From Pseudorhodobacter sp. (GTDB taxonomy: Bacteria > Pseudomonadota > Alphaproteobacteria > Rhodobacterales > Rhodobacteraceae), in assembly GCA_029254215.1 (NCBI GenBank), contig JAQWYA010000050.1, positions 1 through 43,240 on the forward strand: a DNA stretch of 43,240 bases. The letters are read 5' to 3'. Position 1 is the first letter of the stretch. Each line of letters opens with the position of its first letter. The translations under genes and the position numbers were made by a program. This document shows, piece by piece, positions 10,426 through 27,983 of this stretch. The notes beneath the pieces were generated by a model. The model saw nothing but the letters and a program-made list of their open reading frames with translations, did not search any database and was not told where the DNA came from.

Positions 10426-11682
10426 ATGGTCGAGACGACAGATACGGTGGTCGTAGGCGGTGGGCAGGCGGGTGTCGCGATGAGCGAACATCTGGGCCGC
10501 GCCGGGATCGATCACATCGTGTTGGAGCGCGGCCGCATTGCCGAACGGTGGCGCTCGGGTCGCTGGGACAGCCTTGTTGCGAATGGCCCGGCATGGCACG
10601 ATCGCTTTCCGGGGATGGAGTTTAAGGAAGACCCGGAAAGTTTTGTTCCAAAAGAGAAAATGGCGGATTACTTCGTCGATTATGCTGCCATGATCAAGGC
10701 ACCGATCCGCACGGGTGTCGATGTCCAAAAAGTGAGCCGCCTTGAGGGAAAGCAAGGGTTCCGGGTTGAAACCTCACAAGGTGTGATTGAAGCGCGATCT
10801 GTCGTTGCGGCCACAGGACCGTTTCAAAAGCCAGTGTTTCCCCGCATGATTCCCGAGAGCACCGAGCTTTTGCAAATGCATTCGGCGGCGTATCGCAATC
10901 CGGGGCAACTGCCGGAAGGGGCGGTTCTTGTGGTGGGGGCGGGATCCTCTGGCGCGCAGATTGCCGAGGAATTGTTGGAGTGCGGGCGGCGGGTCTATAT
11001 CTCGGTCGGCCCGCATGACCGCCCGCCGCGTGCCTACCGGGGAAGGGATTATTGCTGGTGGCTTGGTGTCCTTGGCAAATGGGATATTGCGGCGCGCGAA
11101 CCGGGGGCGGAGCATGTCACAATTGCGGTCAGCGGCGCGCATGGGGGGCATACGGTTGATTTTCGCCGTCTTGCCGCCCGCGGCATGGTGCTTCTGGGCC
11201 GGATTGACGGCTTTGCAGCGGGCCGTTTGACCGTGGCGCCCGATCTTTGCGCAAATCTTGCGACGGGGGATGCAAACTATCTGTCCGTTCTGGACGAGGC
11301 GGATGACTACGCGCATCGCTTCGGGTTGGACCTTCCGCAAGAGCCCGGCGCGCGCGAAATCGTGCCGGAAGCAGAGTGTATTCGTAGCCCGATCCTGTCG
11401 GTTGATCTGGCCGAGGCGGGGATCACAACTGTGATCTGGGCCACGGGATATGTTCCCGATTTCAGCTGGCTTTCGCTGGATGCATTCGACGCGTCTGGCA
11501 AGCCCCGACATCAGCGCGGCGTCTCGCCAGAGCCGGGGCTGTATTTTCTAGGGCTGCCATGGCAGTCTAGGCGCGGTTCCAGCTTTATCTGGGGCGTCTG
11601 GCATGATGCGAAATATGTGGCGGATCAGATCATGATTCAGCGAAGCTACAGCGCATATCATGAGTCCTTATCGTTAAAATAA
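10426..11682 (+). CDS. Flavin-containing monooxygenase-like NAD(P)/FAD oxidoreductase
   Basis: This 418-aa protein has two Rossmann dinucleotide sites: FAD-binding GGGQAG at 11-16 and NADPH-binding GAGSSGAQ at about 171-178. The ATGYVPDF motif near 341 is typical of FMO/CzcO-like flavoproteins. Likely activity is NADPH-dependent oxygenation of a soft nucleophile (N or S) or a ketone; the substrate is unknown. AAGGGGG lies 6 bp before the ATG. It stands alone, 146 bp after the small gene, and is followed by an A+T-rich hairpin at its stop codon. Confidence 0.85.
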   Translation: MVETTDTVVVGGGQAGVAMSEHLGRAGIDHIVLERGRIAERWRSGRWDSLVANGPAWHDRFPGMEFKEDPESFVPKEKMADYFVDYAAMIKAPIRTGVDVQKVSRLEGKQGFRVETSQGVIEARSVVAATGPFQKPVFPRMIPESTELLQMHSAAYRNPGQLPEGAVLVVGAGSSGAQIAEELLECGRRVYISVGPHDRPPRAYRGRDYCWWLGVLGKWDIAAREPGAEHVTIAVSGAHGGHTVDFRRLAARGMVLLGRIDGFAAGRLTVAPDLCANLATGDANYLSVLDEADDYAHRFGLDLPQEPGAREIVPEAECIRSPILSVDLAEAGITTVIWATGYVPDFSWLSLDAFDASGKPRHQRGVSPEPGLYFLGLPWQSRRGSSFIWGVWHDAKYVADQIMIQRSYSAYHESLSLK

Positions 11683-12098: not shown

Positions 12099-13160
12099 AT
12101 GAAAACCACAACGCTTTTGTCCACGGTGGCCGTTCTGGCCCTGTCCAGCATGGCAGCTCAGGCCGAAACCCTGCGGCTCCTGACCTGGGGCGGCTATGCG
12201 CCCGAGGCTGTGATCGCACAGTTCACGGCAGAAACCGGCCATACCGTCGAAGTCACCAAATCCAACAACGAAGAGATGATCGCAAAGCTGCGGGCCACGA
12301 ACGGCGGCGGCTTCGATCTGGCGCAGCCCAGCCAGGACCGTGTGTCCGGCGCGCAGGAAGAATTCGGCATCTACAAGCCGATGGATCAGTCCAAGCTGGA
12401 AACGAGCTTGTTTATCCCCTCGATGCTGGAAGCCACCAAAACCAATACGACGCTGAACGGCGAAGTCTATGGCGTGCCGCATGTCTGGGGCACGGATGGT
12501 CTGGTCGTGAACACCGCGCTGGCACCGAATGTCAAGGATTACAAGGACCTCTGTGATCCGGCGATGGCGGGGAAAGTGTCTTATCGCGTGAAGCGTCCGA
12601 CGCTGATCGCCTGGGCTTTCTCGATGGGAAAGGACCCCTTTGCGGCCTATGCAGACCCGGTCGCCTATCAGGCCATTCTGGATGAGGTCGAGGCCGCGCT
12701 GATCGCTTGCAAGGCCAATGTGAAAACCTATTGGGACGGCGGCGACGAGATCAAGAACCTGCTGCGCTCGGGTGAAGTCACGGCGGCGATGGCTTGGGAT
12801 ACGGGCGGCTGGCAGTTGAACGCCGAAATGCCCGAGATCACCTTCGTCGCCCCTGCCTCGGGTGCGTTGGGCTGGATTGATACCTTCGTGATCCCGGCCC
12901 GTGGCCGCGCTGATGAAGCGGCCTACGCTTGGATCAACTTCGTGATGCGTCCTGAGATCGCGGCACAGATCACCGCCGAGGCTGGCAACTTTACTGCCTC
13001 GCTGGGCGGCGATGCGGGCGTTGATGATGCGTTGAAGGCCCGCTATCAGGCCAGCTTCCCGCAGGAAGCGATCGACAATATCAAATGGTATCCGACGGTT
13101 CCGGCCGGTCTTGAGACGCTGGAAGGTGCAGCGCTGGACCGTGTGAACGCTGCCAACTGA
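12099..13160 (+). CDS. potD: Spermidine/putrescine-type ABC transporter substrate-binding protein (PotD/PotF class)
   Basis: This 353-aa periplasmic protein has a Sec signal peptide (cleavage likely after AQA at residue 22) followed by TLRLLTWGGYAPEAV, the typical opening of PotD-like type II binding proteins, and the YGVPHVWGTDGL motif near 124. Length and domain order match PotD/PotF. A GGGAG site lies 6 bp before the ATG. It leads a four-gene importer and is followed by a strong terminator, which probably makes it the most abundant product. Polyamine is the family-level ligand; related proteins take up opines, amino acids or quaternary amines, so the exact substrate is open. Confidence 0.85.
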   Translation: MKTTTLLSTVAVLALSSMAAQAETLRLLTWGGYAPEAVIAQFTAETGHTVEVTKSNNEEMIAKLRATNGGGFDLAQPSQDRVSGAQEEFGIYKPMDQSKLETSLFIPSMLEATKTNTTLNGEVYGVPHVWGTDGLVVNTALAPNVKDYKDLCDPAMAGKVSYRVKRPTLIAWAFSMGKDPFAAYADPVAYQAILDEVEAALIACKANVKTYWDGGDEIKNLLRSGEVTAAMAWDTGGWQLNAEMPEITFVAPASGALGWIDTFVIPARGRADEAAYAWINFVMRPEIAAQITAEAGNFTASLGGDAGVDDALKARYQASFPQEAIDNIKWYPTVPAGLETLEGAALDRVNAAN

Positions 13161-13180
13161 TCGGCTGATATTTGACCTTT

Positions 13181-13214
13181 GGTGAAGCGCGCCTCCTCGC
13201 GCTTCACCTTTTTT
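13181..13214 (+). terminator. Intrinsic terminator/attenuator between potD and potA
   Basis: GGTGAAGCGCG (13181-13191) pairs perfectly with CGCGCTTCACC (13198-13208) around a 6-nt loop, followed by six T residues. It sits inside the operon, so partial read-through would keep the ATPase and permeases below the level of the binding protein. Confidence 0.85.
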
Positions 13215-13234
13215 AACGGAAAGCCCAGCCTGCC

Positions 13235-14338
13235 ATGACGGATGTGCCTGACCTTGAATGCCGTGCGCTTTCCAAGCGTTTCGACAGTTTCGAAGCGGTG
13301 AAGGCGATCAGCTTTGAAGTGCCAAAGGGCTCTTTCTTTTCCATTTTGGGGCCTTCGGGCTGTGGCAAGACAACGCTTTTGCGGATGATTGCCGGGTTTC
13401 AGGCCCCGACCAGCGGCGATTTGCGGATCAAGGGGCGCTCGGTTCTGGATGTGCCGCCGAACAAACGCCCCGTGTCGATGGTATTTCAACACCTCGCCTT
13501 GTTTCCGATGATGAATATCGGAGCGAATGTCGGCTTTGGTCTGCGGCAGCGCGGCGTCGGCAAGGCGCAGATCAAGGCGCAGGTGGATCGGGTGCTGGAG
13601 CGGGTCGGTCTCGCCGGGGTTGCCGACCGTTCGGTTGACAGCCTGTCGGGCGGGCAAAAGCAGCGCGTGGCCATCGCCCGCTGCATGGTGCTGGAACCGG
13701 ATGTCTTGCTGTTGGATGAGCCGCTTGGCGCGCTGGATCTGAAGCTGCGCGAGCATATGAAGATCGAGTTGAAGCGGCTCCAATCCGAATTCAACACGAC
13801 CTTTGTCTATATCACCCATGATCAATCCGAAGCTCTGGTGATGAGCGATCAGATCGCGGTGATGAATCGCGGCGTCTTTGAACAGATCGGCACCGCCAAG
13901 GAGCTGTATTACGAACCCAAAACCGCCTTTGTCGCGGGCTTTGTCGGGGAGGCGAATAAATACCGCGCCAAAGTCTCAAGAGCGAACGGCAAGCAATTGG
14001 AACTGCTGACAGAAGACGGAATCGCCCTGCATGGCCTTGATGCCGGCGGTGGGCTGCGTCCGGGCGATGCTGCGCAGGTTTTCGTGCGCCCGGAGGCGAT
14101 CCGGTTGTCGCGACGCGCAGCGGATACGCAAGATCTGGGCAATGCCAGCGCCGGTGTCGTTGACAGTGTGTTGTTCAATGGGGCCAACAGCCAGCTGATC
14201 CTGCGCGATGCCGCCAATGGGGCCGAGATCAGCGTGGCCTTGCCGCAAACCGGCGCCTTCCGTGATCTGAACAAGGGCGATACCGTCTATTTCGGGTGGG
14301 AGCCTGAACAGACCCGCTGCTACCGGGCGGAGGGCTGA
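13235..14338 (+). CDS. potA: Polyamine-type ABC transporter ATP-binding protein (PotA class)
   Basis: This 367-aa ATPase has Walker A GPSGCGKTT at 39-47, a Q-loop in MVFQHLALF near 82-90, signature LSGGQ at 137-141, Walker B LLLDEP at 158-163 and a switch His in THDQSEAL. A C-terminal TOBE-type regulatory domain spans about 285-365. The size and the TOBE domain distinguish it from the LivF/LivG ATPases in the window. It drives import with the two permeases that follow and starts 74 bp after the binding-protein gene, just past the terminator. Confidence 0.9.
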   Translation: MTDVPDLECRALSKRFDSFEAVKAISFEVPKGSFFSILGPSGCGKTTLLRMIAGFQAPTSGDLRIKGRSVLDVPPNKRPVSMVFQHLALFPMMNIGANVGFGLRQRGVGKAQIKAQVDRVLERVGLAGVADRSVDSLSGGQKQRVAIARCMVLEPDVLLLDEPLGALDLKLREHMKIELKRLQSEFNTTFVYITHDQSEALVMSDQIAVMNRGVFEQIGTAKELYYEPKTAFVAGFVGEANKYRAKVSRANGKQLELLTEDGIALHGLDAGGGLRPGDAAQVFVRPEAIRLSRRAADTQDLGNASAGVVDSVLFNGANSQLILRDAANGAEISVALPQTGAFRDLNKGDTVYFGWEPEQTRCYRAEG

Positions 14339-14342
14339 GCCG

Positions 14343-15206
14343 ATGAGCAAGGACGGCTCACGGCTCGGCCTGATCCTGCTGATGGCGCCGCTGTTGCTAT
14401 GGCTGGTGACGTTGATCATCCTGCCACATATCGGGTTGTTCGTGGTTTCGCTCAGCGAAAAGGTCGGTGTGCGGACCTATGAGACGGGCTTTGGCAACTA
14501 TGCCGTCTTCTTCACCGAGCCTTTGTATTGGAACACCTTCGCCCGGACTGCCTATATGTCGATCATGGCGACCGCCCTGACGCTGCTGATCGGCTTCCCG
14601 GTGGCCTATTACATTGCCAAGCTGACACGCGGGCGGAGCAAGACCACGCTGTTCCTGATGTGCCTGATTCCGTTCTGGGTGTCAGAGCTGGTGCGGACCT
14701 TCGGCTGGATGATTTTGCTGCGCGAAACCGGCGTGTTGTCGTCCTTCCTGCAATATCTGGGGGTGATCAACGGGCCTGTGGAGTTTCTGTATAATGATTT
14801 CGCGATCATGACGGGGCTGGTCTATACCTCGATGCTGTTCATGGTGGTGCCGCTGGTCACGACGCTGGACAGCCTTGACGACAGCCTGATCGAGGCTGGC
14901 TATGACCTTGGCGCAAGCAGCCTGTCCATCCTGCGCGAGATCATCATTCCCCATGCCATGCCCGGTATCGTGTCGGGCTGTATCGTGGTGTTTATGCTCT
15001 CTTTGGGTAATTACCTGACGCCTATCCTGCTGGGTGGCAAGGACAGCCTTTGGTTTACGGGGTTGATCTACAGCCAATTCATCACCCGCTTTAACTGGGA
15101 GCTGGGATCGGCCTTTGGCTTTTTGTTGCTGGGGCTGTCGTCCGTCATCGTCTTTGCAGCGCTCAAGCTGACGGGGCAATCGCTTGGCAAGACGATGGGG
15201 CGCTGA
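14343..15206 (+). CDS. potB: Polyamine-type ABC transporter permease (PotB class)
   Basis: This 287-aa inner membrane protein has six predicted segments and the EAA-type ATPase-coupling loop (EAGYDLGASSLSILREIIIP) near residue 182-201. That loop matches PotB/PotH permeases. GGAGGG precedes the ATG and the gap from potA is 4 bp. Its stop is directly followed by the ATG of the partner permease. Confidence 0.9.
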   Translation: MSKDGSRLGLILLMAPLLLWLVTLIILPHIGLFVVSLSEKVGVRTYETGFGNYAVFFTEPLYWNTFARTAYMSIMATALTLLIGFPVAYYIAKLTRGRSKTTLFLMCLIPFWVSELVRTFGWMILLRETGVLSSFLQYLGVINGPVEFLYNDFAIMTGLVYTSMLFMVVPLVTTLDSLDDSLIEAGYDLGASSLSILREIIIPHAMPGIVSGCIVVFMLSLGNYLTPILLGGKDSLWFTGLIYSQFITRFNWELGSAFGFLLLGLSSVIVFAALKLTGQSLGKTMGR

Positions 15207-16052
15207 ATGATCACCGGAATCCCCCAAAGCAGCACGTTCAAATGGACTTACCGCGCCTATATCACGCTGTTTTTTATCTATCTGGCCTTGCCGCTGGTGA
15301 CGGTCTGCGCCTTTGCCTTCAATGACAGCGTCTTTCCCAGCATGCCATGGGACGGGTTCACATGGGATTGGTTCTTTGGCACCGAAACGCCGCGCATCGG
15401 GGTGTTTCATGAACGCCCGATCCTGCGGTCCATCGTCACCTCGGGGTTCGTGGCCTTTTGGGTGGCAAGCCTTTCGGTGCTGGTCGGCACCTGCAATGCG
15501 TTTTTGTTCGTGCGCCATGATTTTCCGGGCAAATCCTTCCTGTACATCCTGATGCTGCTGCCTCTGATCATCCCAGGCATCATCCTTGGCATCTCTATCC
15601 TTGTGTTCAGCAGTGCCATCGCCAACCGGCTGGAGGATGCGACGGGCCTGTGGTTTGACGGGCTGCGCCCCGGTTTGATCCTTGTGATCCTTGGGCAGTT
15701 TTCCTTCATCACCACATTTGCCACTTTGGTGATCTCAGCCCGGTTGCAAAAGTTCGACCCCAGCCTTGAGGAGGCGGCTTTGAACCTTGGGGCCAGCAAA
15801 TGGGGTGCGATCCGGTCGATCACGCTGCCGTTCCTCTTTCCGGCAATGGCCGCCGCCGCTGTCGTCGCCGTTTTGATGAGCTTTGAGAATTTCAACACAA
15901 CGCTGATGCTGGTCGGATCGGATGCGCCGCTGACGGTGACGATGTTTGACCGGCTCAAGCTTGGCTCAACCCCGGTGCTGAACGCAGTATCCTTGCTGCT
16001 GATGCTGGCCTCTGCCGCTTTGGGGCTTTTGTCATTGGTGCTGCGCCGCTAG
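15207..16052 (+). CDS. potC: Polyamine-type ABC transporter permease (PotC class)
   Basis: This 281-aa inner membrane permease pairs with PotB. The coupling loop EEAALNLGASKWGAIRSITLP lies near residue 190-210. The ATG follows the upstream TGA without any gap, showing translational coupling. The gene ends the importer operon; a weak hairpin follows. Confidence 0.9.
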   Translation: MITGIPQSSTFKWTYRAYITLFFIYLALPLVTVCAFAFNDSVFPSMPWDGFTWDWFFGTETPRIGVFHERPILRSIVTSGFVAFWVASLSVLVGTCNAFLFVRHDFPGKSFLYILMLLPLIIPGIILGISILVFSSAIANRLEDATGLWFDGLRPGLILVILGQFSFITTFATLVISARLQKFDPSLEEAALNLGASKWGAIRSITLPFLFPAMAAAAVVAVLMSFENFNTTLMLVGSDAPLTVTMFDRLKLGSTPVLNAVSLLLMLASAALGLLSLVLRR

Positions 16053-16211: not shown

Positions 16212-19200
16212 ATGTCGATCCTCGCCTCTATCCACCATCTGACGCATTACAAATATGATCGGCCCGTGACGCTGGGCCCGCAGGTGATCCGCCTTCGGCC
16301 CGCGCCCCACAGCCGGACGCGGGTGGTGTCGCATTCGCTGAAAGTGACGCCTGCCAATCATTTCGTAAACTATCAGCAGGATCTCTATGGCAACTGGATG
16401 GCGCGGTATGTCTTTCCGGATCCGGTGACGGAATTGAAGATCGAGGTTGATCTGACGGCGGATATGACCGTCTACAACCCGTTTGATTTCTTCGTCGAGG
16501 CCAGCGCCGAGGAATGGCCCTTCACCTATCCCACGGACATCGCCGAGGATCTGGTGATCTATCGCAAGGCCGAAGAGGCCGGGCCGCTGTTGCAGGCGGT
16601 GCTAGATGCGGTGCCGCGCGATCCCAAGCGTACGGTTGATTTCATCGTGCAATTGAACGCCGAGATCGCCAACCGGATCGGCTATGTCATCCGGCTTGAA
16701 CCGGGGGTGCAGACGCCCGAGGAAACGCTCCAGATCGGCAAGGGGTCTTGCCGCGACACAAGCTGGCTTTTGGTGAATGCGCTGCGGCATCTGGGCTTTG
16801 CCGCACGATTCGTCTCGGGTTACCTCATTCAGTTGAAGCCGGATCTGACGGCGGTGGACGGGCCTCAGGGGGCCACCCATGACTTCACCGATCTGCACGC
16901 CTGGTGCGAGGTTTATCTGCCGGGCGCGGGCTGGGTCGGGCTGGATCCGACCTCAGGGCTTTTGACGGGGGAAAGCCATATTCCCCTGTCGGCCACACCG
17001 CATTATTCCAATGCCGCCCCGATTTCCGGCATGGCCAGCTTTGCCGAGGTCACCTTCGATTTCGACATGACCGTGACCCGCACGGCCGAACACCCGCGCA
17101 TCACCAAGCCATTTTCGGATGACGCGTGGGAGGCTCTGAACGCGCTGGGCCGCAAGGTTGATGCCAGCCTTACCGAGGGCGACGTGCGCCTGACCATGGG
17201 CGGAGAGCCGACCTTCGTTTCAATCGACGATTTCGAGGCGGGGGAGTGGAACACCGATGCGGTAGGCCCCACCAAACGGATCTTTGCCGACAAGATGATC
17301 CGCCGCTTGCAGGATAAATTCGCGCCGGGTGGCTTTTTGCACTATGGGCAGGGCAAGTGGTATCCGGGGGAAACCTTGCCGCGCTGGACCTTCAGCCTCT
17401 ATTGGCGGCGCGATGGCAAGCCGATCTGGAACGACCCGGCGCTGATCGCCCCCGAAGACAGCAATGCCAAGGTCACGCCCGCGCAGGCCACCGAATTGCT
17501 GCAAGGCATTGCCGAGGCGCTGGGAGTGCCGCGTGAAAACGTGCTGGAGGCCTATGAAGACCCGGCGGAGTGGATCGTCAAAGAAGGCAATCTGCCTGAA
17601 AACGTGACCCCCGAAAACTCCAAGCTGAAAGACCCGGAGGAGCGTAACCGCATCGCGCGCGTGTTTGGCCGGGGTTTGACAGAGCCATCGGGCGTTGTGC
17701 TGCCCGTGCAGCGTTGGCAGTCACGGGCGGCAAAGACCTGGCTTTCGGAAAAGTGGAAGCTGCGGCGTGGGCATTTGTTCTTGGTGCCCGGCGACAGCCC
17801 GGTGGGCTATCGTCTGCCGCTGAATTCCTTGCCCTATGTGCCGCCCGCAAGCTATCCGCATGTCTTCCCCTCTGACCCGATGCAAAGCCGGGGGGAGTTG
17901 CCGGATTTCCACGCAGCAACCCCTTTTGCCGCCGAAGGCGGGGCCAGATCGCAACACCATCAGGAGCCGGGCAGCTTTACCGCCTCGGACCCCGTGCAGG
18001 ACCGGGTGGAGCAGGTCATCTCTGAGGTTGCAGGCCGGGTGCGCACCGCCATTTCGGTGGAACCGCGCGACGGGCGGCTTTGCGTCTTCATGCCTCCGGT
18101 CGAGGATGTGGAGGATTACCTTGAACTGGTCGCCGCTGCCGAAGCCTCGGCCAAGGCGCTGGGTATTCCGGTGCATATCGAAGGCTATGCGCCGCCCTTT
18201 GATCCGCGTCTGAATGTGATCCGTGTGGCCCCCGATCCGGGTGTGATCGAGGTCAACATCCACCCCGCCCATTCTTGGGAGGATTGCGTCGAGATCACCG
18301 AGGCCGTCTATGAAGAGGCCCGCCAGATCCGTCTGGGCGCGGATAAATTCATGATCGACGGTCGCCATACCGGCACCGGCGGGGGTAATCATGTGGTGGT
18401 GGGCGGCGTCACGCCCTCCGACAGCCCCTTCCTGCGCCGCCCTGATTTGCTGGCCAGCCTGATCCTGCATTGGCAGCGCCACCCCTCGCTGTCCTATCTT
18501 TTTGCGGGGCTGTTCATCGGGCCAACCAGTCAGGCCCCCCGCATCGACGAGGCGCGGATGGACGCGCTTTACGAATTGGAAATCGCGCTGTCGCAGATCC
18601 CGGTTCCGGGGCAGGTGCCGGCCCCGCAGCCTTGGCTGGTGGACCGCCTGCTGCGCAATCTTCTGGTGGATGTGACGGGCAACACCCACCGGGCCGAGAT
18701 TTGCATCGACAAGCTCTACTCCCCCGATGGTCCCACGGGGCGGCTTGGTCTGGTGGAGTTTCGCGGCTTCGAGATGCCGCCAAACCCAAGGATGAGCCTT
18801 GCCCAGCAGCTTTTGATCCGCGCCCTGATCGCGCGGATGTGGAAAGCACCGCTGAAAGGCAATCTGACCCGCTGGGGCACGACCCTGTCAGATCGCTTCA
18901 TGTTGCCGGAATTCGTTTGGGCTGACTTTCTTGAGGTTTTGGCCGATCTGCGCCAGCACGGCTTTGATCTTGATCCCAAATGGTTCGAGGCGCAGGCCGA
19001 GTTCCGGTTCCCCTTCTGCGGTGAGGTCACGGTAGAGGGCGCGAAGCTGGAACTGCGCCAAGCGTTGGAGCCGTGGCATGTCATGGGGGAAACCGGGGCG
19101 ATTGGCGGCACGGTGCGCTATACCGACAGCTCGGTTGAACGTTTGCAGGCCAAGCTGATCACCGCCGATCCGGGGCGCTATACGGTCACCTGCAATCAGC

Positions 19201-19556
19201 GCCGCCTGCCGATGCAGCCGACGGGCACTTCGGGGCAATCGGTTGCGGCGGTGCGGTTCAAGGCGTGGCAGCCTCCCCTGGCGCTGCATCCGGTCTTGCC
19301 GGTGCATGCGCCGCTGACCTTCGACATCTATGACACCTGGACGGGTCGGGCGCTGGGGGGCTGCACCTATCATGTTGCGCATCCGGGCGGGCGGAACTAT
19401 GACACATTCCCGGTCAATGGGAATGAGGCCGAAGCGCGACGTCTTGCGCGGTTTGAACCCTATGGCCATACTTGTGGCGCCTATACGCCGCTTCCCGAAA
19501 CCCCGCATCCTGAGTTTCCAATGACCCTAGATCTCCGCCGCGCGCCCGGTCTTTGA
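16212..19556 (+). CDS. Transglutaminase-like domain fused to DUF2126 ligase-like region
   Basis: This very large (1114 aa) cytoplasmic-looking protein has an N-terminal bacterial transglutaminase-like domain (residues 1-300) with an intact cysteine-protease-like triad: Cys180 in GSCRDTS, His229 in HAWCEV and Asp245 in LDPTSG. A long DUF2126 region follows, containing a [12 protein letters not shown] motif near residue 720-730 reminiscent of glutamine-synthetase-type amide ligases, and a conserved [15 protein letters not shown] stretch. I chose ATG 16212 (MSILASIHH) because the family starts there; an upstream in-frame start at 16059 lacks support. It overlaps the ATP-grasp gene by one base. 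The architecture suggests both cleavage and formation of isopeptide or amide bonds, product unknown. Confidence 0.85.
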
Positions 19557-21949
19557 TGACAGAACCGCTTTCGGCCCCTCATCAGGCCTCGCGCCTGACC
19601 GCAGGGTATCGCCCCCTGCCGGGGGTGCCGGACGAGATGATGGACACCTCCGGGGCGCTGCGCCCCGGATGGGCTCCTTTGGTCGATCACCTCTCGGCCC
19701 GCGGGCCAGAGGCGCTGGCCGAAGATTTCGGCCGGGGCACACAGCATCTGGCCGATGCCGGGGTGTTTTTCCGCAATCATGGCGATGCCTCGCTTGCGGC
19801 GCGTGACTGGCCATTCAGCGCGGTTCCCGTGGTGCTGCCCGAGGCGGAATGGCAGGGGCTTTGCGAAGGGCTTATCCAGCGCGCGGATCTTCTGGAGGCG
19901 GTTGTTGCGGATCTTTACGGCGAAAACCGGCTGATTGCCGAGGGGCATCTGCCCGCAGCCCTGATCGCGCAGAACCCCGAATGGTTGCGGCCAATGGTGG
20001 GCGTGCGGCCAAAGTCCGGGAATTACCTGCATTTTCTGGCCTTTGAAGTGGGCCGAGGCCCGGATGGCCGCTGGTGGGTGATGTCAGACCGGACGGAAGG
20101 CCCCTCGGGCGCGGGGTTCGCGCTGGAAAACCGGGTGGCTGCGACCCGCGTCTTTCCCGAACTGTTCCGCAACATGCCGATCCGGCGGCTGGCGGGCTTT
20201 TTCCAAGGCTACCGGGATGCGCTTTATGGCTTGCGCAGCGACCCGAATTCTCGCGTCGGGATTTTCACCCCGGGCCCGCTGACGGACACCTATTTCGAGC
20301 AAGCCTACATCGCCCGCTACCTTGGCCTGATGCTGCTGGAGGGCGAGGATCTGATCGTCGATCAGGGACAGCTCAAAATGCGTACCATCCGGGGGTTGGA
20401 ACCCGTGGATGTGCTGTGGCGCAGGCTGGACGGGCTTTGGGCGGACCCGCTTGAACTGCGCGAGGATAGCCAACTCGGCACCCCCGGCCTGATGACCATG
20501 GTGCGACAGGGCAAGGTGACGATGGCCAATGCCTTGGGGGTGGGGGTGCTGGAAACGCAGGCCCTCATGGCGTTCCTGCCCAAGATTTCGCGGTTGCTGA
20601 TGGGGGGGCCTCTCAAGCTGCCGAATGTGGCGACGTGGTGGTGCGGCCAAGCTGCCGAACGGGCGCATGTCGCTGCCCATAGCCACAAGATGATGATCGG
20701 GCCAGCGCTGGCAACTCGGATGCCCTATGAAACCGGTGCGGTCCATGCGATCGGCGGCAAGATGAAGGGGGAGGCGAAGGGCAGCCTTCAGGACTGGCTT
20801 TCGGCCAATGCCGCAGGGTTGATGGGCAAGGAGCTGGTCACGCTTTCAACAACGCCCGCCTATTCCAACGGGACGCTGGTGCCCCGCCCCATGACGATCC
20901 GGCTGTTCCTTGCGCGCACGCCCACCGGATGGCTCGTGATGCCGGGGGGCTTTGCCCGGATCGGGGCCAGTGCAGATGCGAGTGCGATTGCGATGCGCAA
21001 GGGCGGGATGGTTGCCGATGTCTGGGTTGTGGGCAAGGAACCCGATACCGGATTGTCGCTTTTGCACCGCGCACAAGGCCCCGAGACCCGCCCGCCGCCA
21101 GAACCCTTGCCCGCACGGGCCGCCGACAACCTTTACTGGCTTGGCCGCTATGTGGAGCGGAGCGAGGGCCTTATGCGGATGGTGCGTGCCTATCAGGCCC
21201 GGCTGGAAAGCAGCGGCTCGGTTCCGCTTTTGGCGGTGATGCAGGCGCGGCTGGAGGCTTATGGGATCAGCGTCGAAGAACCCCTGCCGAAAGGTCTTTT
21301 GGCGACGCTGGCCTCGGCGGTGTATTGCGCGAACCAGATCCGGGACCGCTTTAGCGTCGATGGCTATGCCGCGCTGAAGGATCTTGAAAAGTCTATGCAG
21401 CGGATCTCTCGCACCGCGCAGCCGGGCAATGACTCAGCTCTGGTGATGGGGGTTTTGCTGCGAAAGATCGCGGGGTTTTCGGGGCTTGTGCATGAAAACA
21501 TGTACCGGGCGGCGGGCTGGCAGTTTCTGACCATCGGGCGGGCGCTGGAACGCGCGGCCATGACCCTTGAATGTCTGATCGCCATGGCCGACCCGGAGGC
21601 CCCGGAGGGCAGCCTAGAAGCGGCCATCGAGATCGGGGACAGTGCGATGATCCACCGCCGCCGCCACGCGCTTCTGAGCACGCGGGAAACGGTGATCGAC
21701 CTTCTGGCCTTGGATGAGGGCAACCCGCGGGCGGTGCAGTTTCAACTTGATCTGATCCAGCGCCGTGTGGCCGCGCTGACCGAAATGCGGGTGCCGGGGC
21801 AGATGACCGAAGTGGGGCGCGAAGCCCTTGGCCTGCAAACCAATCTGCGCCTGCAGACGCCTGCCTCGCTGGACCGCGCGGCGCTTGAAGATCTGCGTCG
21901 GCAGGTTTTCTCTTTCGCTGACGCCCTCAACCGGACATTCATTCCGTGA
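19556..21949 (+). CDS. Circularly permuted ATP-grasp (DUF404/407) fused to alpha-E domain (DUF403)
   Basis: This 797-aa protein carries an N-terminal circularly permuted ATP-grasp ligase region over about residues 70-510 (landmarks DLYGENRLIAEG, GPLTDTYFEQAYIARYLG, and a late basic/acidic ligase core). An all-helical alpha-E domain (about 520-797) starts ADNLYWLGRYVERSE. In many genomes these are separate adjacent genes; here they are one chain. ATP-grasp enzymes join a carboxylate to an amine using ATP, so this is the probable ligase partner of the transglutaminase proteins. The ATG at 19556 overlaps the preceding TGA by one base (TTG 19553 is the alternative). Confidence 0.88.
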   Translation: MTEPLSAPHQASRLTAGYRPLPGVPDEMMDTSGALRPGWAPLVDHLSARGPEALAEDFGRGTQHLADAGVFFRNHGDASLAARDWPFSAVPVVLPEAEWQGLCEGLIQRADLLEAVVADLYGENRLIAEGHLPAALIAQNPEWLRPMVGVRPKSGNYLHFLAFEVGRGPDGRWWVMSDRTEGPSGAGFALENRVAATRVFPELFRNMPIRRLAGFFQGYRDALYGLRSDPNSRVGIFTPGPLTDTYFEQAYIARYLGLMLLEGEDLIVDQGQLKMRTIRGLEPVDVLWRRLDGLWADPLELREDSQLGTPGLMTMVRQGKVTMANALGVGVLETQALMAFLPKISRLLMGGPLKLPNVATWWCGQAAERAHVAAHSHKMMIGPALATRMPYETGAVHAIGGKMKGEAKGSLQDWLSANAAGLMGKELVTLSTTPAYSNGTLVPRPMTIRLFLARTPTGWLVMPGGFARIGASADASAIAMRKGGMVADVWVVGKEPDTGLSLLHRAQGPETRPPPEPLPARAADNLYWLGRYVERSEGLMRMVRAYQARLESSGSVPLLAVMQARLEAYGISVEEPLPKGLLATLASAVYCANQIRDRFSVDGYAALKDLEKSMQRISRTAQPGNDSALVMGVLLRKIAGFSGLVHENMYRAAGWQFLTIGRALERAAMTLECLIAMADPEAPEGSLEAAIEIGDSAMIHRRRHALLSTRETVIDLLALDEGNPRAVQFQLDLIQRRVAALTEMRVPGQMTEVGREALGLQTNLRLQTPASLDRAALEDLRRQVFSFADALNRTFIP

Positions 21950-21958
21950 AGGCCCGCC

Positions 21959-22840
21959 ATGATCTATGACATCACATTGAGGCTGAGCTATCACTATGAC
22001 AGCCCCGCGATGGGAGGGCGGCATCTGGTCTGCATCAGGCCGATGGATGACGGTTCTGACCAACGGGTTATCGCATCTCTGCTGGAGGTGGAGCCGCGAC
22101 CGGACGAAGAGCTAAATTGGAAAGACTTTTTTCAAAACAACATGATGGAATTCAATCTTCATGCACCACATGAAGCCGTTTCGGTGCTTTTGCGGGCAAG
22201 GGTTGAACGGTTTCCTGCCGCTGCCCTGCCTGCCGACGGCCTGCTGATCGGTGATCTGCCTGCGGTTCTGCAACGCTCTCGGGACATCGGGCCGAACGCG
22301 CCTCTGCATTTTCTGTCCGCCTCCTTCCGCGTCCCGCAGGACGCGGCGATGGCCCAGTTTGCGCAGGCCCTGATCACAGCGGATATGTCTGTCCAAGCGG
22401 CGGTTCTGGCGGTTGGCTCGGCGCTCTATCGTCACATGCGGTTTGATCCAAAAGCCACAACGGTTGACACCCCCGCAGGCGAGGCCTTTCGCAAGCGCCA
22501 TGGTGTGTGTCAGGATTTTTCCCATATCATGATCGGCTGTCTGCGCGGGGTCGGCATTCCGGCTGCCTATGTCAGCGGCTTTCTGCGCACCGAACCTCCG
22601 CCCGGTGCGGCGCGGCTGGAAGGTGCCGATGCGATGCACGCCTGGGTGCGCGCCTGGTGCGGGCCTGACCTTGGCTGGATTGAATTTGACCCGACCAATG
22701 ACGTTCTGGCTGGGGAAGATCACGTCGTTGTGGCGCGCGGGCGCGATTACTCGGATGTGGCCCCGATCAAGGGAATGATGCGCAGTTCGGGGCGCCAAAA
22801 AAGTCGTCAGGCCGTCGATATGATCCCTGTTCTGGACTAG
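21959..22840 (+). CDS. Transglutaminase family cysteine protease-like protein
   Basis: This 293-aa protein has the N-terminal beta-rich domain common to bacterial transglutaminase-like proteins (MIYDITLRLSYHYDSP) and a complete triad: Cys184 in GVCQDFSH, His227 in HAWVRAW and Asp244 in FDPTND. There is no signal peptide. It starts 9 bp after the ATP-grasp/alpha-E gene and forms the third gene of the set. Members are predicted peptidases or amidases acting on isopeptide-like bonds. The substrate may be the product of the adjacent ligase. Confidence 0.87.
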   Translation: MIYDITLRLSYHYDSPAMGGRHLVCIRPMDDGSDQRVIASLLEVEPRPDEELNWKDFFQNNMMEFNLHAPHEAVSVLLRARVERFPAAALPADGLLIGDLPAVLQRSRDIGPNAPLHFLSASFRVPQDAAMAQFAQALITADMSVQAAVLAVGSALYRHMRFDPKATTVDTPAGEAFRKRHGVCQDFSHIMIGCLRGVGIPAAYVSGFLRTEPPPGAARLEGADAMHAWVRAWCGPDLGWIEFDPTNDVLAGEDHVVVARGRDYSDVAPIKGMMRSSGRQKSRQAVDMIPVLD

Positions 22841-22925
22841 ATGCGCGCGCCATCTTGGCAAGCTTCGCGAAATGGTGAACTCTGCCGAAAACGCATCTGC
22901 CAGCCCTAAGAAAAGGACCCCCGTC

Positions 22926-23906
22926 ATGACGAAACCTCCGCAAAAAGCGGGCTATGATACCGGCCGTCTCAATCTGCCCTTCGTCGGTATCTCGACCTTT
23001 GGCAAGAATGAATATGTGGCTGACTGGGACCGGATCGAGGCGGATGTCGCCATTCTGGGCGCACCCTTCGATTTCGGCACGCAGTGGCGGGCGGGCGCGC
23101 GTTTTGGACCAAGGGCGATCCGCGAAGCCTCGACCCTGTTTTCCTTCGGTCATGGCGGGGCATACGACCACGAGGAAGACACGGTTTTTCTGGAAACCGA
23201 CAAGGTGCGGATCGTCGATCTTGGGGATGCCGATATCGTCCATACCGATACGATGAAAAGCCACGCCAATATCGAATTCGGCGTCCGCAAGATCCTTGCC
23301 GCCGGGGCGCTTCCGGTTGTTCTGGGGGGCGATCATTCGATCAACATCCCCTGCATCAACGCCTTTTCCGACGACTGCGCCGAGAAGGGACCGATTCATG
23401 TGGTGCAGATTGATGCGCATCTGGATTTTGTCGATGAACGCCATGGCGTCCGCTACGGGCATGGAAATCCGATGCGTCGCGCGGCGGAAAAGCCTTATGT
23501 TTCAGGGCTTAGCCAGATCGGGATTCGCAACGTCTCGTCCACGGCAAAAGAAGGGTACGAGGCCGCGCGGGCGATGGGCTCAGATATTCTGAGCGTTCGG
23601 AAGGCGCGCAAACTGGGCACTGAGGCGCTTTTGGCGCGTATTCCCGCGGACGTCCGCTATTATGTCACGATTGATATCGACGGGTTTGACCCTTCGATCG
23701 CGCCCGGAACGGGCACGCCCAGCCATGGCGGATTTCTCTATTATGAGGTGCTGGAGCTTTTGGTCGGGCTGGCCCGTCGTGGCCAGATCGTCGGGCTCGA
23801 CTTGGTAGAGGTCGCGCCCGACTATGATCACAGCGGCAGCACAGCCATTCTAGCGGCCCAGATCCTGATGAACACCATTGGCCATATCCTGCATCAACGC
23901 AGCTGA
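22926..23906 (+). CDS. Agmatinase-family ureohydrolase
   Basis: This 326-aa binuclear manganese ureohydrolase has metal motifs GGDHS (134-138), DAHLD (163-167) and DIDGFD (250-255), followed by APGTGTP. These are complete, so it should hydrolyse a guanidino compound to an amine and urea. Agmatine is the default substrate, but guanidinobutyrate, guanidinopropionate-type compounds or guanidine are possible because the family is hard to subdivide by eye. The start at 22926 is favoured by AAAAGGA upstream; an in-frame ATG at 22872 would add 18 poorly conserved-looking residues. Its last 13 bases overlap the convergent racemase-fold gene. Confidence 0.85.
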   Translation: MTKPPQKAGYDTGRLNLPFVGISTFGKNEYVADWDRIEADVAILGAPFDFGTQWRAGARFGPRAIREASTLFSFGHGGAYDHEEDTVFLETDKVRIVDLGDADIVHTDTMKSHANIEFGVRKILAAGALPVVLGGDHSINIPCINAFSDDCAEKGPIHVVQIDAHLDFVDERHGVRYGHGNPMRRAAEKPYVSGLSQIGIRNVSSTAKEGYEAARAMGSDILSVRKARKLGTEALLARIPADVRYYVTIDIDGFDPSIAPGTGTPSHGGFLYYEVLELLVGLARRGQIVGLDLVEVAPDYDHSGSTAILAAQILMNTIGHILHQRS

Positions 23907-24649
23907 ACCCCCGAATGCAGCCTGCCAAAAGCGGGTTTGTTCGGGGTGATCCCGGCTAGCGACAGCATATGCCAAGCCAGCGCCAGATTGCTGGACAAGA
24001 CGGGGATGCCCAAGGCGTCCTCGGCCTTGGCGGCCACATGGGCGACGCGCAGATTTGTGCAGGCGACGATCACGCCATCACATTTGCTTTGCCCGGCAAC
24101 TGTCAGAATTGATTGGTAGATCGAGGATTCTGCAATACGCGCGACAACGCGGTCATCGCCTTCCTCGAAGCTGCCAAAACTCACGATCTGATGGCCTGCC
24201 TGTTCCAGCTTTTCCTGCATCCGGGCTGAGACGCTTGGCACATAGGGGGTCACGAAGCCCAGACGCTCCAGCCCGAGGGCGCGACAACCGGCCAGCAAGG
24301 CGCTGAGCGGTTCTGTCACCTGAACGCCGGGAAGGCTTTCGCGGATCGCATCGCGCACGCCCTCCGGGCCGATCACGGTCGATGCAGAGGTGCAGCCATA
24401 GCCGATCACGTCAAATTGGGCGGAGCTGGGAAACAAAGCAGCGGCGCGCGGCAAATCGGCCTTCATCTGCATCAAGGTTTCCGCATTGATTTCCGGGACC
24501 ATCGGAATGCGGTTGTGATACAAAGCCACGCCGGGCTCTGCGCAGATCTGGGTCAGTTCCGGCTCGATCGTCTCATCGGTTTGCAGAACGATGAGCCCCA
24601 ACACGGCCTTCGAGCCTGCACCGCGATCCGTTTCAAAACTTAGCTTCAT
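23894..24649 (-). CDS. Asp/Glu racemase / arylmalonate decarboxylase / maleate isomerase-fold enzyme
   Basis: This 251-aa protein of the two-cysteine Asp/Glu racemase superfamily has a first catalytic Cys in GYGCTSAS (near residue 90) and a second in VACTNLR (near 197). The sequence style, with no strong glutamate racemase features, is closest to maleate isomerase, arylmalonate decarboxylase and EutA of hydroxyectoine breakdown. AAGGGG precedes the ATG. It is the last gene of a three-gene minus-strand operon and its stop lies within the end of the convergent ureohydrolase gene. The likely job is racemisation or isomerisation of an intermediate; substrate unknown. Confidence 0.82.
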   Translation of the reverse strand: MKLSFETDRGAGSKAVLGLIVLQTDETIEPELTQICAEPGVALYHNRIPMVPEINAETLMQMKADLPRAAALFPSSAQFDVIGYGCTSASTVIGPEGVRDAIRESLPGVQVTEPLSALLAGCRALGLERLGFVTPYVPSVSARMQEKLEQAGHQIVSFGSFEEGDDRVVARIAESSIYQSILTVAGQSKCDGVIVACTNLRVAHVAAKAEDALGIPVLSSNLALAWHMLSLAGITPNKPAFGRLHSGVQLR

Positions 24650-24661
24650 TCTGTAACCCCT

Positions 24662-25831
24662 TCAAATAACGGGAAGTTCGGCGGCAGCCCTTTTTGACAG
24701 AAGGCGCGGGCCACTCGGCGTGATCACGATGTTTTCTTCATGGACCATCATCCGGCCCTCGCCATAGGACAGGGAGGGTTCCAGCGTCAGAACCATGTTT
24801 TCTTCCAGAACCGTGTCGTCAAACCCCGCGAAGGAGGGCCATTCGGTCAGTTGCAGGCCAAGGCCATGACCAGCGCGACCCACATCACCGCCGCTTTGAT
24901 CCATCGTCGCAATCACCTTGCCCATGGCGGCAAAGACGGTACGGCAGGTGGCACCCGGGCGGGCGGCCTCCAGCCCGGCCTCTACGGCGCGGTGCAAGAC
25001 ATCATAGGCGCGGCGGCTCAGGTCATCGGCATGGCCAATTGCGAAATTCCGGTCGAAATCACAGAAATACCCGTCAAACCGCGATCCGGTATCCAGCATC
25101 AGGATATCGCCACGCTGCAATTCCCGCCCCGAGGGCGGCGAGATGACATCAATATACCCGCCCTGATCGGCACCACCGACCAGATAAGGCACATCATCGG
25201 CCCCCAGCAAAAGCGCCTCACGCCGGAAATCGCGGAACACTGTGCTGAGCGGTTGTCCCGGTGTTGCAAAGCCCGGCACCGCGTCAAAGCTGGCCGATCC
25301 AATCGCGCAGATATGGGCGAGCTTGGCGATCTCTGCAGGCGATTTGACCATGCGCAGCCCGCGGATGATCGGCGTCGCATCGGCGATTTTCAGACCGGGC
25401 AGGCTCTGCACCAGCCGATCAAAATCGCCCAATGGCATCCGCAATCCGGTTTCCGGGCCTTTCAGCAGGCCGATTTGCGCCTTGCGCGCCGCCAAGGGCC
25501 CAAGCAAATCCTGCAACAGCGAGATGCCGTCATCGGCCGGGTTGGGCGCGGACCAGGTGCGAATATCGCGCAACCCGGTCTGGCGCATCAGGGCCGCGCC
25601 AATTTCCGGAATGATCGCAATCGGATCACCCTGAGCCGGCAGGAACAGGAACCACGGCCGGGTCGGGCTTTGCCAGAAAAGCGTCTGGAACCCTGTGAAA
25701 TACAGAAGTTCCGGCTCTGACAGCAGCAAGATGCCGTCAAGCTTCGCGGCCTCCATCTGCCGTTGGGCGGCGTGAACCCGGCTTTGATATTCCGCAGGGG
25801 GGAAGCCGCGGGCGGGTTCAGAGGCCAGCAT
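24662..25831 (-). CDS. M24 family metallohydrolase (Xaa-Pro dipeptidase / creatinase / ectoine hydrolase fold)
   Basis: This protein of about 389 aa has a creatinase-type N-terminal domain and a pita-bread catalytic domain. Counting from ATG 25831, the metal ligands are all present: Asp247 and Asp258 (LDTG and CDFDR), His322 in GHGLG, Glu351 in TLEPS and Glu365 in HEEN. A TTG two codons earlier is the alternative start. It overlaps the end of the diaminopropionate ammonia-lyase gene by 14 bp. The length and operon context (PLP lyase, racemase-fold enzyme) recall the ectoine hydrolase DoeA/EutD setting, so cleavage of an amide or amidine is as plausible as dipeptide hydrolysis. Confidence 0.83.
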   Translation of the reverse strand: MLASEPARGFPPAEYQSRVHAAQRQMEAAKLDGILLLSEPELLYFTGFQTLFWQSPTRPWFLFLPAQGDPIAIIPEIGAALMRQTGLRDIRTWSAPNPADDGISLLQDLLGPLAARKAQIGLLKGPETGLRMPLGDFDRLVQSLPGLKIADATPIIRGLRMVKSPAEIAKLAHICAIGSASFDAVPGFATPGQPLSTVFRDFRREALLLGADDVPYLVGGADQGGYIDVISPPSGRELQRGDILMLDTGSRFDGYFCDFDRNFAIGHADDLSRRAYDVLHRAVEAGLEAARPGATCRTVFAAMGKVIATMDQSGGDVGRAGHGLGLQLTEWPSFAGFDDTVLEENMVLTLEPSLSYGEGRMMVHEENIVITPSGPRLLSKRAAAELPVI

Positions 25832-27014
25832 GATCAAGCACCAGTTCGGCGAAGATCTCGGGGTCGGTGATCCCTTCGGAGCCGATCAACAACACCCGTG
25901 AGCCCGCATCCAGCCCGAGCGCTGCGCGCAGATCGGGTTGCAGCGCACCACTGATCAGGGCCGCGAGCCCCGCCACACCGCTTTCTCCGGCCTCGATCCG
26001 GGGGGTCTTGCCGGTGGGGCGGTACAAAAGCCGCATGGTCGGCCCGATGATCTCATCGGGAATGGTGAGGTAATCCTGCGCCTCTTCGGCCAACACTTCC
26101 CATGCGAGGCCGGATGGCTCGCCGCAGGAGAGGCCGGCCATGACGGTTTCTTCGGCAATGGCAACCGTTGTCGCCGTGCCGTTTTGGGCGCTTTCAATCA
26201 GGCAGGCTGCCAGTTCCGGCTCCACCACCACAACGCGGGGGCTTTGCGCACCCCAATATTGGCGCAAGGCCGCCGCGACCGAGGCCGCCATCCCGCCAAC
26301 TCCGCCCTGCAGGAAAACATGGGTCGGGGCTTTGGTCATAGCCTTGCAGGCTTCGCGGGTCATGACGCCATAGCCCGCCATCACATCGCGCGGCGGTTCG
26401 GAATAACCGGGCCAAGAGGTGTCTGAGACCACAAACCAGCCATTCGCCTCTGCCTCGGCCCGCGTCAGGGCAACCGATGCATCATAATCGCCGTCAATCC
26501 GCACCACATTGGCGCCAAAGGCGCGCATCGCTTCGGCGCGCCCTTCACTGACTTCGGCGTGAATGTAAATCTGACAGGGTGCGCCAAACCGCTGACAGCC
26601 CCAGGCAAGAGAGCGGCCATGATTGCCATCGGTGGCCGAGGTCAGGGTGATTTGTGCAGCCTCTGCGCTGTGCTTGCCGTCCCGGATATCGGCAAAACTG
26701 GCCTCGCGTCCCAAAAGCGCCGAGATTTCCCGTTGCAGCACCCGCAGCCCCGCGTAAGAGCCGCCAAGCGCCTTGAAACTGCCGATGCCAAAGCGCGGGC
26801 CTTCATCCTTGTAAAGAATAGCCTCCAGCCCAAGCGTTTCGGCCAGATCGGTCAGCTCATAGAGCGGCGTTGGGGCATAGCCTTCCCATTGGGTGATCTC
26901 GGCAATGGCGGCATCAAAGCCGGATGCGGGCAAGACCTTGTCTGCGGCCCCTTGCGGCTTGGGAGAGGTTTCGAAATGGCGAAGTTTGGCAGAAGCAAAG
27001 GCAGGGTGCAGCAT
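25818..27014 (-). CDS. dpaL: Diaminopropionate ammonia-lyase
   Basis: This 398-aa fold-type II PLP enzyme has the PLP lysine Lys81 in GIGSFKALGG, the DGNHGRSLAW motif near 150 and the glycine-rich phosphate loop FLQGGVGGMAA. These and the length match DpaL, which converts 2,3-diaminopropionate to pyruvate and two ammonia. The start at 27014 (MLHPAF) is supported by AAAGGACAG upstream; the longer reading is shadow sequence. It heads the minus-strand operon with the M24 and racemase-fold genes, and is divergent from the PxpA gene across 198 bp. Confidence 0.85.
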   Translation of the reverse strand: MLHPAFASAKLRHFETSPKPQGAADKVLPASGFDAAIAEITQWEGYAPTPLYELTDLAETLGLEAILYKDEGPRFGIGSFKALGGSYAGLRVLQREISALLGREASFADIRDGKHSAEAAQITLTSATDGNHGRSLAWGCQRFGAPCQIYIHAEVSEGRAEAMRAFGANVVRIDGDYDASVALTRAEAEANGWFVVSDTSWPGYSEPPRDVMAGYGVMTREACKAMTKAPTHVFLQGGVGGMAASVAAALRQYWGAQSPRVVVVEPELAACLIESAQNGTATTVAIAEETVMAGLSCGEPSGLAWEVLAEEAQDYLTIPDEIIGPTMRLLYRPTGKTPRIEAGESGVAGLAALISGALQPDLRAALGLDAGSRVLLIGSEGITDPEIFAELVLDHAGL

Positions 27015-27212
27015 GACGGTGGTCTGTCCTTTCGGGGCAGGGCATCTGGGTCGGGTGTGCGTAAGGTGGCATGAATACACCGCCCTTGGCCATTTCTTTT
27101 GCGGAGCCTCGCGCGACAAATGCGACGTTCAACCCTTGCTCTTGGCGCTTGCGGAAGGCAGCATGACCGTCAGCAACGCCTCCGGAAGCTGGGGCCGGGA
27201 AAGGACATCTGA

Positions 27213-27983
27213 ATGCGCCAAACGGTCGATCTGAACGCTGATATGGGCGAAAGCTTTGGCCCTTGGAAGATGGGCGATGACGCGGCCCTGCTGAAGGTCA
27301 TTTCTTCGGCCAATATCGCCTGCGGCTTTCATGCGGGGGATGCGGAAACCATGGCCGCGACAATGGCTTTGGCCCAGCAAAACGGGGTTGGGATTGGCGC
27401 GCATCCCGGTTTTCCGGATCTGCAGGGGTTCGGGCGGCGGAACATGGATATGTCTGCCAAGGCGCTGCGTGCGATGGTCTCGTATCAGCTTGGGGCGGCG
27501 CAGGCGATGGCGCGGCTGGCGGGTGGCCAAGTGCGGCATCTGAAGCTGCATGGCGCTTTGGCGAATATGGCCTCGGTGGATGAGGCGATGGCGCGGGCCT
27601 GCTATGAGGGCGCGCTTGGCGTGGACCCGGATATCATCATCATGGTGCTGGCCGCGACCGACCAGCAAAAGGCGGTGCAGGGCCTGGGCTGTCGCTGGGC
27701 GGCCGAGATTTTTGCCGATCGCGCTTACAATGACGATGCGACGCTGGTTGATCGCAGGTTGCCGGGGGCCGTTATCCATGATCCGCAAGAGGCGGGCGCG
27801 CGGATGGTGGCGATGGTGCAGGCCGGGGCGATTCTGACACAAAGCGGGGCGCGCATTCCGACACCGATTGACACGATTTGCCTGCATGGCGACACGCCGA
27901 CCGCGGTTCAGATCGCAGCCAGTGTCCGCGGGGCTTTGGAAGCTTCGGGCATCGGCATCGCTCCCTTCACGGGTCGCCGGTGA
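27213..27983 (+). CDS. pxpA: LamB/YcsF family protein, 5-oxoprolinase subunit A-like
   Basis: This 256-aa protein opens with VDLNADMGESFGPW and contains SSANIACGFHAGD and IGAHPGFPD, the signatures of the LamB/YcsF (PxpA) family. PxpA works with PxpB and PxpC to open 5-oxoproline using ATP. Neither partner is in the window, so it may use partners elsewhere or act on another lactam or amide. AAAGGA sits 7 bp before the ATG. It is divergent from the diaminopropionate ammonia-lyase operon, sharing its regulatory gap. Confidence 0.87.
   Translation: MRQTVDLNADMGESFGPWKMGDDAALLKVISSANIACGFHAGDAETMAATMALAQQNGVGIGAHPGFPDLQGFGRRNMDMSAKALRAMVSYQLGAAQAMARLAGGQVRHLKLHGALANMASVDEAMARACYEGALGVDPDIIIMVLAATDQQKAVQGLGCRWAAEIFADRAYNDDATLVDRRLPGAVIHDPQEAGARMVAMVQAGAILTQSGARIPTPIDTICLHGDTPTAVQIAASVRGALEASGIGIAPFTGRR

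Follow-up and report, generated by a model that had tools for sequence, protein, structure and literature searches.

A bacterial amidoligase system made up of ATP-grasp, glutamine synthetase (GS)-like, alpha-E, transglutaminase-fold (TGL) and Anbu proteins was reportedly predicted by Iyer et al. in 2009, with DUF2126 said to be its GS-like part. We analyzed three adjoining genes of these families in a 43,240-nucleotide (nt) stretch of DNA from Pseudorhodobacter sp. (GenBank assembly GCA_029254215.1, contig JAQWYA010000050.1; the whole stretch is called the window below): a TGL-DUF2126 fusion (gene 1), a circularly permuted (CP) ATP-grasp fused to alpha-E (gene 2), and a second TGL protein (gene 3). 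There is very little doubt that the three genes belong to the predicted amidoligase/Anbu system, of which the window set is an ordinary, well-conserved member. The CP ATP-grasp, alpha-E, TGL and DUF2126 families all occur here and the genome has an Anbu, but the system is split in this genome between two loci, and the fused ATP-grasp is without the K...GGxG loop. Our additions are a tie between these two loci, or arms, and the finding that the fused ATP-grasp has apparently lost its nucleotide loop. The question becomes narrower in that the DUF2126 arm accompanies the standalone arm, and in that one ATP-grasp of the two is probably no usual ATP holder. The Anbu/alpha-E system has a wide distribution: of 299 genomes drawn from the phylum, 156 have alpha-E. 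The 2009 prediction is cited in PMC5666114, PMC6376114 and PMC3597751, and a 2021 paper still gives Anbu as a protein without known function (PMC8665760); here and below, published sources are represented by extracts.

The canonical Anbu operon (Pseudomonas putida PP_2685-2688, Yersinia bercovieri) has the same ATP-grasp, alpha-E and TGL families, and a run of this kind is present on contig C5 of our genome; the window arm differs in having DUF2126 in place of Anbu and an ATP-grasp of a separate, fused group. Glutathionylspermidine synthetase/amidase combines an ATP-dependent ligase and a cysteine amidase in one chain. Gene 1 likewise would carry ligase and amidase on one chain, but the folds of both parts differ from those of that enzyme, and nothing points to its substrate. 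Rv2566-Rv2569c of Mycobacterium tuberculosis may be a similar set. The likeness to the Pup-proteasome of Actinobacteria is one of analogy only: GS-fold enzymes (Dop appears in the Foldseek list below) and a proteasome-fold partner are common to both, but no Pup-like gene was found near the arms here. That system has a role in nitrogen starvation (PMC8223512), and Anbu, unlike it, is apparently without a partner AAA ATPase (PMC5666114). Burkholderia cenocepacia I35_5080-83 (PMC5491218) is an NtrC-dependent group of DUF404/407, DUF403, TGL and large TGL proteins resembling the window set, except that ATP-grasp and alpha-E are separate genes there; the large TGL protein is known by its description. 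An inactive, membrane-fused TGL from Shewanella was considered as a relative, as was Caulobacter hvyA; both were rejected, being other proteins by their descriptions in the extracts.

Genes 1 and 2 overlap by 1 nt (TGATG; the ATG of gene 2 is at 19556), and genes 2 and 3 are separated by 9 nt. This spacing, the coordinates and the domains of all three genes, as proposed by an initial annotation made from the letters alone, were confirmed from the open reading frames (ORFs) and by Pfam:

16212..19556, plus strand: gene 1, TGL-DUF2126 protein of 1114 amino acids (aa) (ORF and Pfam), with Pfam domains Bact_transglu_N at aa 6-83, Transglut_core at aa 139-246 and DUF2126 at aa 278-1109
16749-16751, 16896-16898 and 16944-16946, plus strand: codons of the gene 1 triad, Cys180, His229 and Asp245, respectively
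17019..19553, plus strand: DUF2126 region of gene 1, with a modelled fold that appears similar to the glutamine synthetase/GCS superfamily
19556..21949, plus strand: gene 2, fused circularly permuted ATP-grasp and alpha-E, 797 aa (ORF and Pfam), with Pfam domains ATP-grasp at aa 91-469 and alpha-E at aa 518-795
19556..21106, plus strand: ATP-grasp part of gene 2, without the K...GGxG loop that is present in the standalone paralogues and in PDB 3N6X
21089..21946, plus strand: alpha-E part of gene 2, all-helical in its model, mean predicted local distance difference test (pLDDT) 92
21959..22840, plus strand: gene 3, second TGL protein, 293 aa (ORF and Pfam)
22508-22510, 22637-22639 and 22688-22690, plus strand: codons of the gene 3 triad, Cys184, His227 and Asp244, respectively

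Every domain scores far over its Pfam cut-off (DUF2126 1334.5 bits, CP_ATPgrasp_2 426.4 and Alpha-E 165.8), and Bact_transglu_N and Transglut_core are detected in both gene 1 and gene 3; an NCBIfam scan of the three genes matched no model at E 0.001. Among solved structures, part of gene 3 matches a putative cysteine protease (3ISR, E 1.3e-10), and the ATP-grasp of gene 2 matches 3N6X (E 1.1e-62), labelled a putative glutathionylspermidine synthase.

The C5 run consists of a standalone ATP-grasp (CP_ATPgrasp_2, 551.5 bits), alpha-E (302.3 bits), a TGL gene and an Anbu-type member of the Proteasome family (G000:C5:16365-17081; Pfam Proteasome 27.5 bits, cut-off 22.4). There is no Anbu in the window's own operon, where the gene after gene 3 (end at 22840) is that of a ureohydrolase, so that the absence of a proteasome-like peptidase pointed out initially is true of the window and not of the genome. 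DUF2126 occurs in 50 of 149 genomes drawn from the window's family. All 50 have alpha-E, versus 60 of the 99 genomes without DUF2126, and 47 have Anbu, versus 58 of 99, a co-occurrence that the initial annotation had proposed to tabulate. The draw of 299 phylum genomes, 84 of them with DUF2126, gives alpha-E in 84/84 against 72/215. Among control genomes, Synechococcus elongatus gave matches to both DUF2126 and alpha-E.

The arms are also physically linked. Since the 20 phylum loci had been picked partly for a nearby alpha-E, linkage was counted from the whole phylum draw instead: among the matches listed, DUF2126 has a standalone alpha-E no more than 12 kb away in 38 of 84 genomes (in 1 of the 32 that belong to the window's class and in 37 of the other 52), a count in which a standalone alpha-E copy is among the matches listed in 82 of the 84 and in which one genome split over contigs (G298) is included. 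In one locus of the window's family (L072, 3822-14572) the two arms form a single 11-kb run of seven genes, all with the same orientation, in the order ATP-grasp, alpha-E, TGL, Anbu, TGL-DUF2126, ATP-grasp/alpha-E, TGL. Three further loci (L207, L211 and L212) have Anbu directly next to TGL-DUF2126 and in the same orientation (matches 62-216 nt apart), and in another (L086) the three-gene set and a four-gene Anbu run are divergent. Given this co-occurrence and linkage, the two arms are best read as one system.

Within the DUF2126 arm, the three genes stay together. From the family draw 48 loci were fetched, 47 of them with room for the set (L040, at a contig end, was dropped, and G008, with DUF2126 split over contigs, was left out); the three-gene order is kept in 44 of the 47, the third gene lying ∼3.3 kb off in L052. 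The named loci are the best 80 of at least 580 confirmed, and all three genes are kept in 70 of the 75 with room (five, L092, L126, L133, L134 and L162, are at contig ends). A search for the set across relatives, as first suggested, thus found it conserved. It is incomplete despite room in three family loci (L078, L080 and L081) and five named loci (L093, L109, L119, L137 and L156). These five and L222, from the same genus as the window, have TGL-DUF2126 without the other two genes close by; in L078, L080 and L081 the DUF2126 gene is without the fused ATP-grasp/alpha-E and is divergent from an Anbu-type ATP-grasp, and in L082 the DUF2126 gene is broken into two frames. The two Cys-His-Asp triads named in the initial annotation are present and invariant: in 80/80 sequences of gene 1 (the window and 79 named loci), and in all 52 sequences counted for gene 3, where 27 of 79 rows were left out (ORF from the upstream stop >420 aa, or identical with gene 1). 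Chance is no explanation for the conservation of set and triads. Clustering of neighbouring ORFs gave no further conserved gene, in a picture blurred by apparent antisense ORFs; the large minus-strand ORFs in these clusters may be antisense shadows of the core genes.

The ATP-grasp of gene 2 belongs to a common group. A fused ATP-grasp is present in 136 of 153 loci examined, so that finding ATP-grasp and alpha-E in one chain, correct for this locus, is nothing special; alpha-E lies in the same ORF in 136 of the 137 rows labelled fused. A quick unrooted tree of 100 rows (58 of 158 domains having been removed by dereplication, and one cut gene, L092_1_S, dropped earlier) separates fused from standalone ATP-grasps by one branch with support 100, and this single branch would fit one old duplication and one fusion. 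In the standalone copies, as in the aligned 3N6X, SGGYG comes after a Lys. Written as K-x(2,9)-GGxG, the motif is found in 22/22 standalone and 0/136 fused copies, that of the window included among those without it. By raw label the counts are 21/21 and 1/137; the exception, L202_1_F, was moved to the standalone group and taken as a standalone gene in a long ORF because it is itself the separate, divergent ATP-grasp of that locus. Among 85 dereplicated fused rows, Lys317 and Asp424 of the C5 ATP-grasp are kept in none and Lys463 in 14. Four positions of the window ATP-grasp (D265, D297, N325 and R449) are still common to both groups.

In ATP-grasp enzymes a Lys and the glycine-rich loop grip the ATP phosphates. 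Since the K...GGxG loop is absent from the fused copies, we infer that the fused ATP-grasp is probably no ordinary ligase, having apparently lost its ATP-gripping loop, and ligase activity is not to be assumed for it from its family membership. It is possible, if on balance doubtful, that the fused protein is a pseudo-ligase throughout the phylum. In this reading it would descend from an old duplication of the Anbu-operon ATP-grasp, would have lost the loop and been fused to alpha-E, and would now pass substrate as an adaptor among the active standalone ATP-grasp, the GS-like ligase and the cleavage enzymes (TGL and Anbu). Such an adaptor would explain why the DUF2126 arm was in no genome found without alpha-E and nearly always occurs with the other arm. 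A literature search on circularly permuted ATP-grasps and DUF2126, with the paper of Iyer et al. (2009) outside it, found no mention of loop loss in the extracts covered. For the standalone ATP-grasp of Yersinia, release of phosphate from ATP is described (PMC6376114). The alpha-E model (pLDDT 92) has no standout relative among solved structures (best Foldseek E 0.11), and an alpha-E profile run against solved structures brought no match better than E 0.1. NasR, the best VIA row, reaches a Z of 10.1, under the ∼13 advised for helical bundles, and we claim no relation.

To examine the proposed GS likeness of DUF2126, as the initial annotation had recommended, residues 270-1114 were modelled with AlphaFold (57 sequences; pLDDT 75; predicted template modelling score 0.78). 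Against solved structures, the best 50 of 252 Foldseek rows (E ≤10) all belong to the glutamine synthetase superfamily; the top rows are YbdK-type ligases (E 1.3e-3, probability 1.00), and GmaS, GS and the depupylase Dop are among the matches listed. In a VIA search, all 50 of the rows listed are likewise of the GS superfamily, with a best Z of 8.6 over 205 residues (root mean square deviation 3.3). We therefore see in the model a modest resemblance of DUF2126 to the GS superfamily, for which the uniform list is the evidence, single scores being marginal. A profile search of solved structures with DUF2126 gave nothing. The structure aligners used follow chain order, and the GS-like domain of the 2009 system is reportedly circularly permuted. 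The genome itself has seven glutamine synthetase family matches, two of them partial.

A link to nitrogen comes from several other bacteria. In P. putida, PP_2686-2688 are 11- to 15-fold up in nitrogen limitation (PMC7801951), PP2685-2687 are raised (PMC3325844), the PP_2688 promoter responds to nitrogen limitation, and PP_2685 and PP_2688 are higher on nitrate than on ammonium (PMC8050072); PMC5666114 and PMC6376114 both cite one P. putida study for the nitrogen link. A Bradyrhizobium RpoN table lists a CP_ATPgrasp_1 gene with a sigma-54-type site, and co-occurrence with urea metabolism domains in marine metagenomes also counts for the link. We also scanned for sigma-54-like sites in upstream regions that begin at the tblastn match rather than at an annotated start, with expected numbers taken from mononucleotide shuffles. 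In the phylum set, in which one locus (L216) is of the window's class, 8 of 15 standalone ATP-grasps have such a site upstream (0.12 expected), as do 3 of 20 gene 1 homologues (0.30 expected). Regulation by nitrogen limitation has been demonstrated only in other bacteria.

That regulation, together with YbdK, GmaS and GS among the matches to DUF2126, would suit a system that γ-glutamylates diverse amines for nitrogen salvage, with DUF2126 as the GS-like ligase and a TGL enzyme removing the glutamyl group later. We consider it unlikely: it leaves unexplained why DUF2126 was in no genome found without alpha-E and why it is linked to Anbu, and the neighbour clustering, blurred as it is, brought up no further conserved gene.

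We favor instead, tentatively and at somewhat less than an even chance for the mechanism as a whole, a two-locus system of amide ligation and cleavage, with the window as its DUF2126 arm, that carries out reversible small amide or peptide conjugation in nitrogen-limited cells. The GS-like part of gene 1 would activate a carboxylate with ATP and join it to an amine, and the TGL part of gene 1 and gene 3 would hydrolyze the amide. The standalone ATP-grasp of the C5 arm would act as a canonical acyl-phosphate ligase, and the fused ATP-grasp/alpha-E may be a substrate-holding or regulatory partner. The overall logic would be roughly that of the Pup-proteasome: a GS-fold ligase, a cleavage enzyme and a proteasome-fold protein.

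A number of observations weigh against parts of this two-arm conjugation scheme. The system has no known substrate or product; in the extracts of PMC6376114, none of the Anbu proteins tested showed peptidase activity and no specific interaction was found among Anbu-operon proteins. The arms are on different contigs here, and 37 of the 38 linked cases are outside the window's class; Anbu was not detected in 3 of the 50 DUF2126 family genomes, in co-occurrence tests that ignore kinship. As to the fused ATP-grasp, Lys364, which precedes the loop in the C5 copy, is kept in 8 of the 85 fused rows, none with GGxG and all 8 among the 17 phylum-set rows. The DUF2126 model is middling (pLDDT 75), has no Foldseek match at E ≤0.001, and its best Z of 8.6 is hardly over the 7-8 usual for models without a clear match; a DUF2126 profile compared with GS and GCS2 gave nothing, in a comparison with poorly built templates and with strand ignored in ORF picking. 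In the nitrogen data, PP_2685 (Anbu) is unraised in the wild type (1.12-fold; PMC7801951), and expression of the Anbu operon is constant across conditions, nitrogen limitation in P. putida excepted (PMC5666114). For the alphaproteobacterial set, the number of sigma-54-like sites upstream of gene 1 is that of chance (3/131, 2.16 expected), and 0 of 7 standalone ATP-grasps have one. The induction of PP_2686-2688 persists in an rpoN mutant (14- to 20-fold; PMC7801951), which speaks against strict sigma-54 control in P. putida; since the favored claim concerns nitrogen limitation and not sigma-54, this leaves its standing as it is.

A last point against the scheme is that the 2.5 kb around the arms held no small ORF of wide occurrence that could be a tag gene, a distant one being possible; the largest clusters of small ORFs there comprise 8 loci, all rhizobial records. 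This null result would agree with a product that is a nonribosomal peptide or storage amide of nitrogen-limited cells rather than a protein tag, with Anbu and TGL as its peptidases. PMC5666114 credits Iyer et al. with the view of a peptide-synthesis system in which Anbu is the peptidase, and the genomic evidence for this alternative is the same. No such product is known, and ligation and cleavage genes side by side point to turnover, not storage; we regard this alternative as unlikely.

Returning from reversible conjugation by two arms to the window itself, the set is flanked, as the initial annotation stated, by the genes of an importer and a ureohydrolase:

12099..16052, plus strand: spermidine/putrescine-type ABC importer (binding protein, ATPase and two permeases), local context
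22872..23906, plus strand: agmatinase-like ureohydrolase, local context

The binding protein has PotD as its best NCBIfam match (103.8 bits, far under the cut-off of 582), and the ureohydrolase passes the agmatinase model TIGR01230 (190.6 against 174.3). These flanks had suggested a polyamine- or diamine-containing substrate. In a stand-alone system of this sort, the ligases would join imported polyamine to a carboxylate and the TGL amidases would release it; no plus-strand terminator-like site is listed in the stretch from the last permease gene to gene 1 or in that from gene 3 to the ureohydrolase, and 3N6X, the closest solved relative of the ATP-grasp, bears the name of a glutathionylspermidine synthase, as an annotation label only. 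The wider comparison goes the other way. An agmatinase orthologue is present in 23 of the 50 DUF2126 family genomes and 53 of the 99 others (P = 0.39, Fisher's test), with no association between DUF2126 and this orthologue in the draw. Of the 48 family loci, 4 (L039, L053, L056 and L062) have a match to the importer binding protein or permease or to the ureohydrolase near DUF2126; the corresponding counts are 0 of 80 named loci and 0 of 3 same-genus loci (one with only 2.6 kb upstream). We rejected the importer and ureohydrolase as conserved partners, the polyamine context being local only, and hold stand-alone polyamine conjugation to be very improbable. Within the genus, DUF2126 itself is found in 4 of 9 genomes, the window's own included.

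Other genes and a structure of this neighbourhood were observed. Beyond the ureohydrolase lies a cluster (23894-27983) of EutA/racemase-like, M24 peptidase-like and diaminopropionate ammonia-lyase-like genes, closed by a LamB/YcsF-family gene (27213-27983, 323.1 bits). Just upstream of the importer is a flavin oxidoreductase (10426-11682), whose nearest model is MSMEG_0569 (TIGR04046; 360.7 bits, below the cut-off of 498). A stem-loop of 11 pairs followed by a T run is located at 13181-13208, between the genes for the importer's binding protein and ATPase.

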